A DNA stretch of 64,000 nt from Centipeda felix (GTDB taxonomy: Bacteria > Bacillota > Negativicutes > Selenomonadales > Selenomonadaceae), in assembly GCF_900186465.1 (NCBI RefSeq), contig NZ_LT891959.1:434001-498000 (forward strand), read 5' to 3'. Below, piece by piece: positions 45,135-48,986 of the stretch. Position 1 is the first letter of the stretch. Each line of letters begins with the position of its first letter. The position numbers and the translations under genes are program-made. Below the pieces are notes generated by a model. The model worked only from the letters and a program-made list of their open reading frames with translations, was not told the origin of the DNA and did no database searches.

Positions 45135-45899
45135 TTATCCATTTTTTCCGTAGCGATATTCCGTCGGCTTCATGCCCATGTGCTTCTGAAAGACCTTGCT
45201 GAAATAGCGCGTATCCTGATAGCCGCAGGCGGCGGCGACCGCATAGATCTTGGCATCGCTCTCGCGCAGCATGTGTCCTGCATGACGCAGGCGGCATTCC
45301 GTCAGGTAGGAGCTGAAGGAGGTTCCGCACCGCGCAAAAAGTTTGTGGAGATAGCTGACGCTCAGCCCCAGCTCTCCTGCAACCTCGCGGACGGTGATCG
45401 GTTCTGCCATGTGTGCCTCTATGTGCCGTACAGCATGCAGGAGATAGCCGCGCACGGGCTCTTCCGCGGGAAGCGCTAGGCTCCCGCACACCGGATCGTC
45501 ATCATCACAGTGTACGCCATGACGACGGCTCATGATATGCCCAGCGGCGAGTTTGATCGCGGCCGCAAGCTCCTCATCATCCAGCGGCTTGAGGAGGTAG
45601 GCACATACACCGAGGGCAATCGCCTGCTGTGCATACTCAAACTCCCCGAATCCCGACAGGATAATGTACTCGGCATCGATCTCCTCGCGCAGACTGGCGA
45701 TGACATCGAGCCCCGTCATCCCCGGCATCTTGATGTCCACGATCAGCACATCGGGATGGTGTTCCCGCGCCATGAGGATGCCCTCCATCCCGCCGGAGGC
45801 CGCACCGATTACCTCTGCACCAAAATCCTGCCACGGGGTCAGCTGTACGATGCCCTGCCGCTGCAGCGGCTCATCATCAATCACAAGCACTTTAATCAT
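45135..45899 (-). CDS. Response regulator with AraC-type DNA-binding domain (YesN-like)
   Basis: 254-aa transcription regulator. Receiver domain residues 1-120 (VLVIDDEPLQRQGI; phospho-Asp in DVLIVDIKMPGMTG; Lys in LLKPLDDEE). AraC/XylS helix-turn-helix pair at about 155-250 (VREVAGELGLSVSYLHKLF; VAAACGYQDTRYFSKVFQKH, GMKPTEYR). It overlaps the kinase gene by 8 bases. YesMN pairs usually control a neighbouring binding-protein-dependent transporter; the Fe(III)-type binding protein upstream is the natural candidate. Confidence 0.92.
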   Translation of the reverse strand: MIKVLVIDDEPLQRQGIVQLTPWQDFGAEVIGAASGGMEGILMAREHHPDVLIVDIKMPGMTGLDVIASLREEIDAEYIILSGFGEFEYAQQAIALGVCAYLLKPLDDEELAAAIKLAAGHIMSRRHGVHCDDDDPVCGSLALPAEEPVRGYLLHAVRHIEAHMAEPITVREVAGELGLSVSYLHKLFARCGTSFSSYLTECRLRHAGHMLRESDAKIYAVAAACGYQDTRYFSKVFQKHMGMKPTEYRYGKNG

Positions 45900-47586
45900 C
45901 GCGCGGAGCCTCCTCCATGTACTTCAACATCAACCGCACCTCTGTGCCCTTCCCCTCCGCACTGGAGAGGTCAATCCCGCAGTCCGCATCACCGTTCAGC
46001 ATAGCGCGCATGTGGACGTTATAGAGGCCAAAGTGATTATCATCCTGCCGCGCGAGCACTTCCTGCTGGCGCGCTTCGGACATCCCCTGCCCGTCGTCCT
46101 TCACGCGGAGAAGAATATGATCGCCGTCGCGCCTGCCGACGATGAGGATGCGCCCGCCGCTCTCCACACTCTCAAGTCCATGTTGAATCGCATTCTCGAC
46201 CAGCGGCTGGAGGATGAGCTTCGGCACATAGCATCCCATGATGCGGCTGTCTACATCCAGCGTCACCTTCAGACGTCCCTCGAAGCGCCGTTGTTGGATT
46301 TTCAGATAGGTGCGCAGGAAGGATAGTTCCTCTGCCACCGTCACGAATTCCTTCATGCTCACCGAAGCACGCAGGATCTTGCCGAGCTGGACGGCGATAT
46401 CTGCCGCGCCCTCCGCGTCGCCGAGCTTTGCACTCCACTTGATGAGATTCAGCGTATTGTAGATGAAATGCGGGCGCGTCATTTCGGTCAATGACTTGAC
46501 CTCCGCGATGCGCAGGCGCCGCTCTCGCGCACGGTTCTCCGCTAGGAGCGTCCGTATGTGCGCAATCAGGCCATTGAACGTCCGTGCGAGCTCTCCGATC
46601 TCGTCGCGGCGATGCGCCTCCAGCTGCGTCGAAAAATCATCCGAGCTCCGTGCACGGCGCATTGCCTGTGTCAGAATGTGGAGCGGATGCCAGAGACGGC
46701 GGCTGAGCCGCCACGCGAGGTATGCCGTCACCGCAAGCGCGGCAGCGTCTACGGCAAGGATGAGACGTATCAGCTCCTCCACCGGTGTCCCGTCCGTCCG
46801 CTGCCGGAGATGCACGGCAATCCCCGTCACGGCAGAGCTGTTCACGAAGTCACGAAAAACGGACGCTGACGTTTCATCCTCCGCCGCCGAAGCAAAGAGG
46901 GCGGAGAACCCTTCGCCGCGATGATCGAGCAAATCCATCATCACGTAGCGGTAGCGATCCGTCAGGATGATCTGCCCCTCGTTGCCGTCCTGCACCCGCT
47001 GAATGAGCGGAACGAGAGCCTCGCGGCGAATATCGACAACCACGGCACCGAGCAGCTTGCCATTTTGACGAATGGCATGCGCCATCGAAAAAACAGTATT
47101 CTGCTGGTCAGGAGCCGTGCGGTCAGCCGCAATCAACGCCCAGCCATCTTGCTGTACCGCCTGACCGATCACGCCCCAGTGGAGATTCGTCGGGAGACGA
47201 TGGTCACGCGGCACATCGTCCGTGGCAATCGCACGCCGCCCATCCGCCGGAAGCAGATAGACGGCCGCCTCCCCCGTACGCCCGGAGAGGACACCATAGA
47301 GATCGGCATAGAGATGCGTCGTATCCGTCGGCTCCCCGTGCATATACGCCATGACATCATCCCGCATGAAAAACGGCATCATCAGCCGCTGATAAGCAAG
47401 TGCGAGATTGTCGATCTCACGGGAGATGCGCTGCACCTCAGCGTACCCGGCCTTCTCCTGTGTACTCTCATAGGCACGATCCGCAGCGTAGAGGATAATC
47501 GTCGAGACGATCAGGAGAGGAAGGACGCCGCCTAAGAGAAGGTATGCGAACAGTCGCTTCTGATAACTGATCGTATACCACTCCAT
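45892..47586 (-). CDS. Sensor histidine kinase (YesM-like)
   Basis: 564-aa membrane kinase. First helix LLLGGVLPLLIVSTIILY, an extracytoplasmic sensor domain of about 240 residues, second helix near 260-285, HAMP (RRLWHPLHILTQAM), then the His_kinase domain with phospho-His in TRPHFIYNTLNLIKW and HATPase (ENAIQHGLESVESGG; VKDDGQGMSE). ATG at 47586 has GGAGG 8 bases upstream; the ATG at 47610 lacks one. Signal unknown. Confidence 0.92.
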   Translation of the reverse strand: MEWYTISYQKRLFAYLLLGGVLPLLIVSTIILYAADRAYESTQEKAGYAEVQRISREIDNLALAYQRLMMPFFMRDDVMAYMHGEPTDTTHLYADLYGVLSGRTGEAAVYLLPADGRRAIATDDVPRDHRLPTNLHWGVIGQAVQQDGWALIAADRTAPDQQNTVFSMAHAIRQNGKLLGAVVVDIRREALVPLIQRVQDGNEGQIILTDRYRYVMMDLLDHRGEGFSALFASAAEDETSASVFRDFVNSSAVTGIAVHLRQRTDGTPVEELIRLILAVDAAALAVTAYLAWRLSRRLWHPLHILTQAMRRARSSDDFSTQLEAHRRDEIGELARTFNGLIAHIRTLLAENRARERRLRIAEVKSLTEMTRPHFIYNTLNLIKWSAKLGDAEGAADIAVQLGKILRASVSMKEFVTVAEELSFLRTYLKIQQRRFEGRLKVTLDVDSRIMGCYVPKLILQPLVENAIQHGLESVESGGRILIVGRRDGDHILLRVKDDGQGMSEARQQEVLARQDDNHFGLYNVHMRAMLNGDADCGIDLSSAEGKGTEVRLMLKYMEEAPRDD

Positions 47587-47651
47587 TTCTGTATCCTCCG
47601 CCTTTCCCATACATCAAAAACAAGATCTCGCCGCGTCAGAACAACCATAAG

Positions 47652-47669
47652 AATGTATAAAAATACATT
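47652..47669. promoter_or_regulatory. 18-bp perfect palindrome in the leader of the YesM/YesN operon
   Basis: AATGTAT-AAAA-ATACATT. It lies about 25 bases after the predicted start site. It may be an operator or a weak leader hairpin. Confidence 0.4.
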
Positions 47670-47698
47670 ATGTTCCTCAATCTTCAGACTATATAGAA

Positions 47699-47727
47699 AG
47701 AATAAGGATAAATCGTTTTTCTGTCAA
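47699..47727 (-). promoter_or_regulatory. Promoter of the YesM/YesN operon
   Basis: Minus strand TTGACA, 17 bases, TATTCT. Leader of about 105 bases to the kinase ATG. An upstream ATGATAATTTCA resembles a Fur half-site. Confidence 0.78.
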
Positions 47728-47782
47728 GTGAAATTATCATTTTGTAGGGATTTTCATTCTATGTTGTGAAAACAGAAAAAGG

Positions 47783-47806
47783 AAAACCGCCACACGAAGT
47801 GACGGT
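47783..47806 (-). terminator. Terminator after the Fe(III)-binding lipoprotein gene
   Basis: Minus strand ACCGTCAC, TTCGT, GTGGCGGT (one G-T pair), then TTTTCCTTTTTC. Confidence 0.85.
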
Positions 47807-47854
47807 CTTGGAAGGGGAAAATATGGGAATGGGGGGATGGGGGGAAATGGGGAT

Positions 47855-48868
47855 TTATTTGATAACCGCAGCACGCCATTCGCTCAAAAACTCATCTCTG
47901 AACGCGGCGGCATGCCGGGCATCAAACCGTGTGGAATGAATCTCCGCGAGCGTTGGGAGATTCGGCGGTGCCGTGACATCGGCACGCGTGGAGCGTCGTT
48001 CATATACGCCGAGACGTTCATGAACACGACGGCTCATAACAAAATCAAGGAATTTTTTTGCATTCTCTATGTGCGGAGCATTTTTGATGATCGCAACCCC
48101 GGTGGCGGACACACGTGTCCCTTCCCGTGGATAGACGACCTCGATGTGTGCCCCCGCCGACCGAGACCGCAGAACTGGCTGCTCCGCTGTCGCCGTGACC
48201 GCATACGCACCACTCACAACGGCCTTGACCTGCTCTGCCGAGGCAGAGACCATGTGCCCATCCAGCTGATCTTCCATGCGAGAGATCAGGGCGTTATCAC
48301 CGCCGAGTACATCCATCATCGTCATAAGGACATCGTATGAGACCAAGGATTTGGTCGGGTCAGCAAGCGCAATGCGCCCGCGAAAACGTGATTTGAAAAG
48401 ATCGCTCCATCCGGTCGGAGCATCCTCGGCATCGATGAGATCCGTGTTGTAAGCCAGCACATAGGGATCCTCTGTGATAAGGTAATATGCCTTGTCACCG
48501 CCAACATAGTCACTGCGCAGGGCACCTTCCTCCGGGCAGTCGTAGGATGCCAGATAGGACGTGAGGGATAGGTAGACATCTTCCACACCGCCCCACAGGA
48601 CATCGCCGCGCGGATTCTCCTGTTCCGTACGAATGCGTGTCATGAGGGCATCGGATGTACCGTCCACCAACTGGACGCGGATTCCGGTCTCCTCCTGAAA
48701 CTCCTTGGCAATGGGGTCTGTCCAATCCTCCGCACCGCAGTTATAGACCACGACCAGATTCTCATCGTCCGTAGGAGCCTGACGAGCAGACCCACATCCG
48801 ACGAGAACAGAGCTAACGCCGAGGAGAAGTGCCGCACACAATATCTGCATACGTTGAAAGATGAGCAT
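47855..48868 (-). CDS. Fe(III)-type ABC substrate-binding lipoprotein, without permease genes
   Basis: 337-aa extracytoplasmic binding protein of the AfuA/FbpA class (family-1-like iron-binding). Signal with lipobox LVGC near residue 25, then NLVVVYNCGAEDWTDPIAKEF, GDVLWGGVEDVYLSL and YVLAYNTDLIDAED. ATG at 48868 follows AGGAGGTG. No permease or ATPase is adjacent. It precedes the YesM/YesN system with a terminator between them. The Fur-box-like element over its promoter supports iron as ligand, but phosphonate or sugar-phosphate ligands occur in relatives. Confidence 0.85.
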   Translation of the reverse strand: MLIFQRMQILCAALLLGVSSVLVGCGSARQAPTDDENLVVVYNCGAEDWTDPIAKEFQEETGIRVQLVDGTSDALMTRIRTEQENPRGDVLWGGVEDVYLSLTSYLASYDCPEEGALRSDYVGGDKAYYLITEDPYVLAYNTDLIDAEDAPTGWSDLFKSRFRGRIALADPTKSLVSYDVLMTMMDVLGGDNALISRMEDQLDGHMVSASAEQVKAVVSGAYAVTATAEQPVLRSRSAGAHIEVVYPREGTRVSATGVAIIKNAPHIENAKKFLDFVMSRRVHERLGVYERRSTRADVTAPPNLPTLAEIHSTRFDARHAAAFRDEFLSEWRAAVIK

Positions 48869-48913
48869 CGTGCGACACCTCCTAAATGAGATGTCATCAA
48901 TTTCAAATCCTTT

Positions 48914-48933
48914 TGATAATTCTACAATAATCA
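48914..48933. promoter_or_regulatory. Fur-box-like palindrome over the -10 of the binding-protein gene
   Basis: TGATAATTCTACAATAATCA; 16 of 20 positions are symmetric, with GATAAT/ATAATC half-sites. It covers the -10 hexamer. Confidence 0.55.
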
Positions 48934-48947
48934 GAACTGCAATTCAA
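48919..48947 (-). promoter_or_regulatory. Promoter of the Fe(III)-binding lipoprotein gene
   Basis: Minus strand TTGAAT, 17 bases, TAGAAT. Start site about 43 bases before the ATG. Confidence 0.7.
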
Positions 48948-48986
48948 TCGTACAGTTCATCATTTTGGTGTGATAATCCTATTCTG

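Follow-up and report, generated by a model that had tools for sequence, protein, structure and literature searches.

A probable three-component sensor of solute-binding protein, YesM-type kinase and AraC-type regulator in Centipeda felix, with an ultraconserved C-rich 3' untranslated region

Introduction

In the HptASR system of Staphylococcus aureus, a solute-binding protein (SBP) is joined by a membrane kinase and a regulator of the YesM/AraC type. The SBP bound to glucose-6-phosphate (G6P) has been reported to touch the periplasmic domain of the kinase (PMC8774646), and RsaG, a small RNA (sRNA) of the same species that comes from the 3' end of uhpT, is described as dependent on HptRS (PMC9438474). 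In the CuaDSR system of Ruminiclostridium cellulolyticum, a second SBP, whose gene adjoins the two-component pair, is reported to bind the kinase (PMC10384115). Finally, the C-rich segments of the UCCC-motif sRNAs RNAIII, RsaE and LhrC are described as pairing with Shine-Dalgarno sequences, and LhrC as depending on a two-component system (PMC4132741, PMC9217828). Here we describe a locus in a 64,000-nt stretch of Centipeda felix DNA (GCF_900186465.1, NZ_LT891959.1; the window), where three minus-strand genes encode an SBP, a sensor kinase (HK) and a response regulator (RR). We consider it likely that this trio works as an extracytoplasmic sensor with three components, of the HptASR/CuaDSR kind, derived from an SBP-ATPase-permease-HK-RR operon.

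Gene content and retention of the trio

The SBP gene (47855..48868, minus strand) encodes a lipoprotein of the AfuA/HptA/PhnS-like type with lipobox Cys25, recognized from its open reading frame (ORF), its Pfam matches (SBP_bac_6/11/8/1) and its sequence and fold matches. HK (45892..47610, minus strand; probable start at 47586, judging by homologues) is a YesM/GanS-type sensor kinase whose ORF, Pfam matches and structure model give a dCache-like extracytoplasmic domain, HAMP, His_kinase (PF06580; 72.1 bits, cut-off 25.2) and HATPase_c (43.6 bits, cut-off 26.4). RR (45135..45899, minus strand), assigned from its ORF and Pfam matches, combines a receiver (Response_reg, 81.9 bits, cut-off 30.2) with an AraC-type helix-turn-helix (HTH_18, 79.5 bits, cut-off 33.6). 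HK and RR belong to the YesM/YesN two-component family, as a PF06580 plus HATPase_c kinase and a receiver-AraC regulator. The trio is flanked by leuA and uvrC on one side and by rubredoxin and putP on the other, and no ATPase or permease gene lies between uvrC and putP in this window. The first-pass annotation, made from the DNA letters of the window, had placed a binding-protein gene upstream of a membrane kinase and an AraC-type regulator with no permease or ATPase nearby; the ORFs, Pfam domains and gene content agree.

We compared the locus across a genus set of 14 genomes, this one included. These congeners comprise, among others, Selenomonas artemidis (G001), S. flueggei (G003), S. infelix (G004), S. 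massiliensis (G005), S. noxia (G006) and Centipeda periodontii (G007). The leuA-uvrC flank is present in all 14 and rubredoxin in 13, the contig ending in the remaining one. Three forms of the locus were found: SBP-ATPase-permease-HK-RR in G006 and G007, SBP-HK-RR in 11 genomes, and HK-RR in one genome, G012. SBP, HK and RR are therefore kept together in 13 of 14 congeners, directly adjacent in 11 and with ATP-binding cassette (ABC) genes between them in 2. A wider scan of the genome collection returned 24 loci through two peptide patterns, a procedure biased to close relatives, and HK and RR matches were found in the fetched flanks of all 24 (the RR matches in L127 and L130 span about 130 residues of longer proteins). 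Co-occurrence of the three genes, which the first-pass annotation had proposed as a check, thus holds in both sets, and the neighborhood, whose non-conservation would have spoken against its reading, is conserved. ABC genes are present in 13 of the 24 wider loci. The other 11 comprise six Selenomonas loci, four from Clostridia/Firmicutes records and one from a spirochaete metagenome-assembled genome, a distribution suggestive of repeated origins of the three-gene form.

Selection on SBP and its probable coupling to the kinase sensor domain

SBP is under purifying selection. Its dN/dS is 0.08-0.22 in nine of nine genome pairs, with synonymous sites near saturation in two pairs that involve G007, and 0.10-0.21 in the seven pairs between transporter-less genomes. 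These values bear on the possibility that the trio is the relic of a decaying operon in which SBP, HK and RR are drifting. SBP is indeed less constrained than its neighbors (uvrC dN/dS 0.03-0.08 in the same nine pairs), and it is split in G006 and deleted in G012. However, its dN/dS lies well under 1 in every pair, its frame is intact in 12 of 14 congeners, HK and RR are open in all 14 (one RR cut by a contig end), and the promoter region, the terminator and a C-rich stretch behind the gene are conserved, so that drift appears very improbable. The split SBP belongs to the full operon of S. noxia ATCC 43541, where it occupies two frames (L084:10624-11705) through either a frameshift or a sequence error.

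G012 provides a comparison in which the SBP is lost. At this locus (L085), the gene is cut down to about its last 31 codons, and the promoter region, C-rich element and terminator are kept. Among HK columns that the other 13 genomes share without variation, G012 has changed 31 of 83 in the sensor domain and 2 of 150 in the cytoplasmic part; the unique changes of the other genomes number 0-5 and 0-4, respectively. The G012 changes are spread along the sensor domain, a pattern that speaks against a domain swap. For the sensor, dN reaches 0.295-0.329 in four G012 pairs (dN/dS 0.22-0.34), compared to 0.052-0.168 in five comparison pairs, and cytoplasmic dN is similar in the two groups. Additionally, SBP distances correlate with sensor distances in 12 genomes, once cytoplasmic and uvrC distances are controlled for (partial r 0.68, p 0.0002; G006 is omitted for its frameshift and G012 for lack of an SBP). 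The cytoplasmic counterpart of this correlation gives r 0.28 and p 0.09. We regard these data as good evolutionary evidence, coming from one genome (G012), that SBP partners the sensor domain of HK. The earlier proposal that the binding protein presents its ligand to the kinase is supported by co-retention (13/14 congeners and 24/24 wider loci), purifying selection on SBP and sensor-only divergence in G012.

SBPs can share permeases, and a non-sensory SBP could instead feed a distant ABC transporter, for example one with a paralogous two-domain permease, or a non-ABC carrier. At least one full-length permease relative, within the locus or elsewhere, occurs in 13 of 14 congeners, so that such service is formally possible there. 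In S. massiliensis, whose genome is listed as 100% complete, the lone SBP has no second SBP match at E≤1e-8 and no related two-domain permease was found, the best match reaching 25% over about 160 residues; in this species the distant transporter suggested in the first-pass annotation is hard to sustain. Moreover, sensor-only divergence after SBP loss would be unexpected if SBP had never touched the kinase, and overall we judge a purely transport-related role unlikely. In the loci inspected, each permease found elsewhere in the congeners lies beside its own SBP. All three YesM kinases of the C. felix genome lie in SBP clusters, the other two of which have an ATPase and a permease.

Two non-ABC carriers were also considered and rejected. 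PutP, considered as a partner of SBP, was identified as a proline symporter (TIGR02121, 624.8 bits, cut-off 515.5), and its gene is separated from the trio by rubredoxin. UhpT/GlpT-like carriers, considered as targets, are represented in this genome by one match above cut-off, on a different contig.

Origin of the three-gene form

The five-gene order is intact in a second copy in S. infelix (L086) and in G067 and G031, which represent two other genera. With these five-gene operons as outgroups, the trio probably descends from a nutrient-uptake operon that lost its pump genes while purifying selection maintained SBP, HK and RR. In an SBP tree rooted on the second S. infelix copy, G067 and G031 (the frameshifted G006 left out, and G012 having no SBP), the 11 lone SBPs group together in a single clade (100/99) that excludes the full-operon G007. 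S. infelix itself carries a complete five-gene operon elsewhere in its genome plus a transporter-less copy. The permease and ATPase of the five-gene operons resemble PhnU2/PhnT2, below NCBIfam cut-offs.

The converse history, in which the three-gene form is ancestral and an ATPase-permease pair was inserted in G006 and G007, draws on the flank tree (uvrC+leuA, midpoint-rooted). Here the two full-operon genomes are not sisters: G006 is sister to the transporter-less S. artemidis (100/100), and G007 falls among transporter-less genomes. Insertion is nonetheless quite unlikely, as the five genes are complete and identically ordered in the outgroup and second-copy operons, and the lone SBPs form a clade to which G007 does not belong. 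Under pump loss, this placement of G006 and G007 means that parallel losses or between-species operon exchange must have occurred. The operon and flank trees (L072-L085) conflict with high support, a conflict that suggests operon exchange among oral Selenomonas species.

The genus would offer a natural series, from pump plus sensor through sensor only to kinase only, of how an uptake operon can become a pure sensor. A single SBP loss would also map the constraint that the SBP puts on the kinase sensor domain, which is usually studied via structures. Our literature search returned no paper combining an orphan SBP with permease loss.

Binding-protein family and candidate ligand

By sequence, the closest solved relatives of SBP are 6lki/6lkg, followed by P5PA and AfuA. 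The title given for 6lkg in the structure search is 'two-component system protein mediate signal transduction', and we take 6lkg-6lkl to be HptA structures. In a fold search with the SBP structure model (mean pLDDT 89.1), AfuA occupies ranks 1-4 and 7, and STM0429, VcA0625 (G6P) and P5PA fill the rest of the top eight. The first ferric binder, HitA, comes ninth and 6lkg eleventh. By sequence and modeled fold, the protein is closer to binders of phosphate esters (AfuA, HptA, P5PA) than to ferric binders. The first-pass annotation had called it a Fe(III)-type binding lipoprotein; the lipoprotein SBP is upheld and the Fe(III) assignment is not, with phosphate-ester/phosphonate binders ranking first and ferric ones from rank 9. 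Membership of the FbpA family, in which two Tyr residues serve as iron ligands, is not supported, since phosphate-ester/phosphonate binders lead by both sequence and fold. We rejected an iron/Fur reading on the sequence matches, the fold matches and the promoter geometry described below.

AfuA is reported to contact phosphate through Ser37 and Thr150 and sugar through His205, Asp206 and Glu229 (PMC4546632). We mapped these residues by eye onto 15 SBPs via alignments, assuming a numbering offset of 2. The Ser37 site is Ser in all 15 (Ser72 in C. felix), and the Thr150 site is Ser/Thr in 13 and Ala in 2. The sugar sites have changed: His205 corresponds to Glu in 15/15; Asp206 to Glu in 10, Ala in 3 and Gln in 2 (this genome and S. 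flueggei); and Glu229 to Gly/Ser/Thr in 15/15 (Thr here). On this mapping a phosphate contact by SBP is plausible, and the rest of the ligand may be something other than the sugar part bound by AfuA. Across the SBP alignment, 19 of 175 columns are class-specific.

The genomic surroundings were sampled by Pfam scans of 10 chosen proteins from the five non-Selenomonas transporter-less loci, L129 and L131 contributing a single protein each. In three of the five loci the trio has phosphate genes in its vicinity: an alkaline phosphatase gene adjoins SBP in L132, a DUF47-PHO4 phosphate transporter adjoins RR in L133, and a Na/Pi cotransporter lies a few genes upstream, past a TRAP transporter, in L134. 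When four of these neighbor proteins were used as tblastn queries, none had a counterpart in the remaining 21 of the 24 loci.

An ultraconserved C-rich 3' untranslated region

The SBP stop codon is followed by a C-rich stretch and an intrinsic terminator (47783..47854, minus strand), a candidate 3'-untranslated-region (3'-UTR)-derived sRNA. The sequence reads ATCCCCATTT(T)-C(5-7)-AT-C(5-6)-ATTCCCATATTTTCCCCTTCCAAGACCGTCAC, followed by a hairpin with a variable loop. Its longest invariant run is 37 nt in 14/14 congeners. We compared this with six neighboring coding genes (12-14 genomes per gene), in which the longest invariant runs are 11 (leuA), 17 (uvrC), 8 (HK), 8 (RR), 8 (rubredoxin) and 10 nt (putP), and the best 35-nt window has 32 invariant positions (uvrC). 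A 35-nt core occurs as one copy with zero mismatches in 14/14 congeners; of the 189 family genomes, the remaining 175 gave no match when as many as 3 mismatches were allowed. C-run lengths vary by single bases between genomes, so coding is not the reason for this conservation. In G006 and G007 the element sits between the SBP and ATPase genes, and in G012 the C-rich run is retained despite the SBP deletion. There, the predicted RNA would be about 195 nt long, comprising the remnant, the element and the terminator behind the promoter, with the start assumed 7 nt past the -10.

The predicted RNA fold consists of an unpaired C-rich segment and a terminator hairpin (z -4.84), in keeping with the conserved single-stranded C-rich seed and intrinsic terminator expected of a 3'-UTR-derived UCCC-motif sRNA. 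Covariation in the hairpin is uninformative, as 0 of 11 pairs changed on both sides. The complement of the element, GGAAGGGGAAAATATG, looks like a ribosome-binding site plus start codon. The stretch may be a small regulatory RNA derived from the 3' UTR. A search for RNA targets gave 45 non-self matches versus 23 in a reversed control, with no string common to more than three genomes. Similarly, local ribosome-binding sites showed no consistent pairing with the element, in a test whose background mean for G011 was corrupted by invalid energies. The only Rfam matches were two low-scoring ones to eukaryotic families, well short of their cut-offs, and the window as a whole had no match reaching gathering level. 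Among the matches listed in our literature search, none concerned Negativicutes sRNAs by title or abstract lines. One of the 45 target matches, a 14-of-16 match to the C-rich complement, lies in the 5' region of an interrupted UhpT/GlpT-like gene that continues in another frame (L089; G000:C17, ~607.7-609.1 kb, outside the window).

We give a somewhat less than even chance to the alternative that the stretch is a DNA or terminator feature, such as a G-quadruplex-forming template strand, a strong terminator or an mRNA 3'-end stabilizer, and not a trans-acting RNA. Consistent with this alternative, a strong terminator hairpin closes the stretch, five G-runs of at least 3 occur on the opposite strand, and neither a conserved trans target nor consistent local pairing emerged from the searches above. 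On the other hand, ATATTTT and TTCCAAG are as invariant as the C-runs, more than a quadruplex or terminator requires, and the six outgroup/paralogous operons inspected lack the element and carry other sequence at that place, mostly ordinary hairpins.

Promoters and candidate operators

A scan for promoters and terminators, which found 7 promoter-like sites versus 2.9 in shuffles and 5 terminator-like sites versus 3.3, placed a terminator-like hairpin at 47783-47809 (minus strand), behind SBP and the C-rich stretch, in line with the terminator of its own that the first-pass annotation had ascribed to the gene. The promoter-like site of SBP, TTGAAT-17-TAGAAT (48919..48947, minus strand), has 9 of 12 matches and lies in a region aligned in 14 genomes. 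HK has a promoter, TTGACA-17-TATTCT (47699..47727, minus strand), whose two hexamers align across the 12 congeners that lack ABC genes. The SBP promoter carries an imperfect inverted repeat across its -10 (48914-48933). Fur sites have a 7-1-7 geometry; the spacer here is 4 nt, and the label 'Fur-like' given to this promoter earlier does not hold.

An 18-bp palindrome in the HK leader, AATGTAT-AAAA-ATACATT, is present at 47652..47669 as first described. It is specific to this genome among the 14 congeners, the best matches in the 13 others having 3-6 mismatches of 14 in the 300 nt past the C-rich core, and there is no second copy within the window. By chance, 0.10 occurrences are expected per window with as many as 2 mismatches allowed, and 10 of 100 shuffled sequences contained one match or more. 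We therefore rejected it as a conserved operator.

A putative RR site, AGGATTNTCNNNCNAAAATGANGAA (48956..48980, minus strand), was identified by congener alignment immediately before the -35 of the SBP promoter. This block is present in 14/14 congeners with 0-1 mismatch, upstream of SBP or its remnant, and occurs once in this genome. At up to 3 mismatches, the pattern has nine further matches (2-3 mismatches) in five genomes, and a reversed-pattern control has five. If AGGATTNTCNNNCNAAAATGANGAA is the RR site, this genome would hold no other recognizable RR target at that threshold.

Proposed mechanism

In the mechanism we propose, SBP is an anchored protein that binds a small phosphate-containing compound, which may be a sugar phosphate, another phosphate ester or phosphonate, or phosphate itself. 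Liganded or unliganded, SBP would dock on the YesM-type kinase at its dCache-like sensor domain, and the kinase would then alter phosphorylation of the AraC-type regulator. In the ancestral five-gene operon, SBP would have served both pump and sensor, and after loss of the pump genes it would have been retained as part of the sensor. The probable target of the regulator is the promoter of SBP itself, whose transcript would end in the C-rich 3' UTR, released as, or acting as, a base-pairing RNA.

Several observations weigh against this proposal. The SBP-loss comparison is based on a single genome, and DNA linkage may inflate the SBP-sensor correlation, which could partly reflect linkage because the operon and flank trees disagree. 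The sensor domain reaches dCache_1 only below cut-off, and the 50 fold matches listed for the HK model (mean pLDDT 82.7, pTM 0.49) comprise structures of kinase domains, along with integrative models of chemoreceptors and WalK, with no HptS among them. With respect to the ligand, AfuA-type sugar contacts are not conserved, so that it may differ from that of AfuA, and the C. felix SBP has the most unique changes, 12, among 12 SBPs compared. Furthermore, the HK tree alone does not resolve the branching of G006 and G007, and the HK+RR tree places them outside only weakly (81/94).

An extension, which we regard as possible but doubtful, is that the output of the sensor is RNA. Phosphorylated RR would essentially act at the SBP promoter only, and the C-rich sRNA would silence many G-rich ribosome-binding sites; G012 would then be a ~195-nt RNA gene beside a kinase and regulator. 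Should the 3' UTR act as an RNA regulator, the Negativicutes would have in it a candidate sRNA under two-component control that outlives its host gene.

Comparison with known systems

The C. felix trio resembles HptASR in the YesM/AraC type of its membrane kinase and regulator and in the fold class of its SBP, for which 6lki and 6lkg are the two best sequence matches. It differs in its ligand residues and in its surroundings: HptASR adjoins and controls uhpT, whereas the trio has no adjacent transporter of that kind, and five-gene relatives with ABC genes are visible for the trio, unlike HptASR. A C-rich 3' UTR behind the SBP gene is not mentioned in the accessible text on HptASR (PMC8774646). 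CuaDSR, as reported, shares the placement of an SBP gene beside a two-component pair, but its SBP binds cellobiose and it controls a neighboring ABC operon, which is present. AfuABC, P5PA-type importers and VcA0625 are among the best fold matches, and the phosphate-contact Ser37 described for AfuA is kept as Ser72; however, AfuABC and P5PA are parts of ABC importers, and the reported sugar-contact residues of AfuA are not kept.

For the 3' UTR, the nearest analogue in the literature accessible to us is RsaG. The element shares a C-rich segment with the UCCC-motif sRNAs as these are described, and differs from them in lying within an mRNA 3' UTR, in showing no conserved target in the searches above and in having no relevant Rfam match. 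Taken together, the trio represents a known type of system in a new form, and its ultraconserved 3' UTR, of which the first-pass annotation had recorded the terminator, is an unexpected addition to it.

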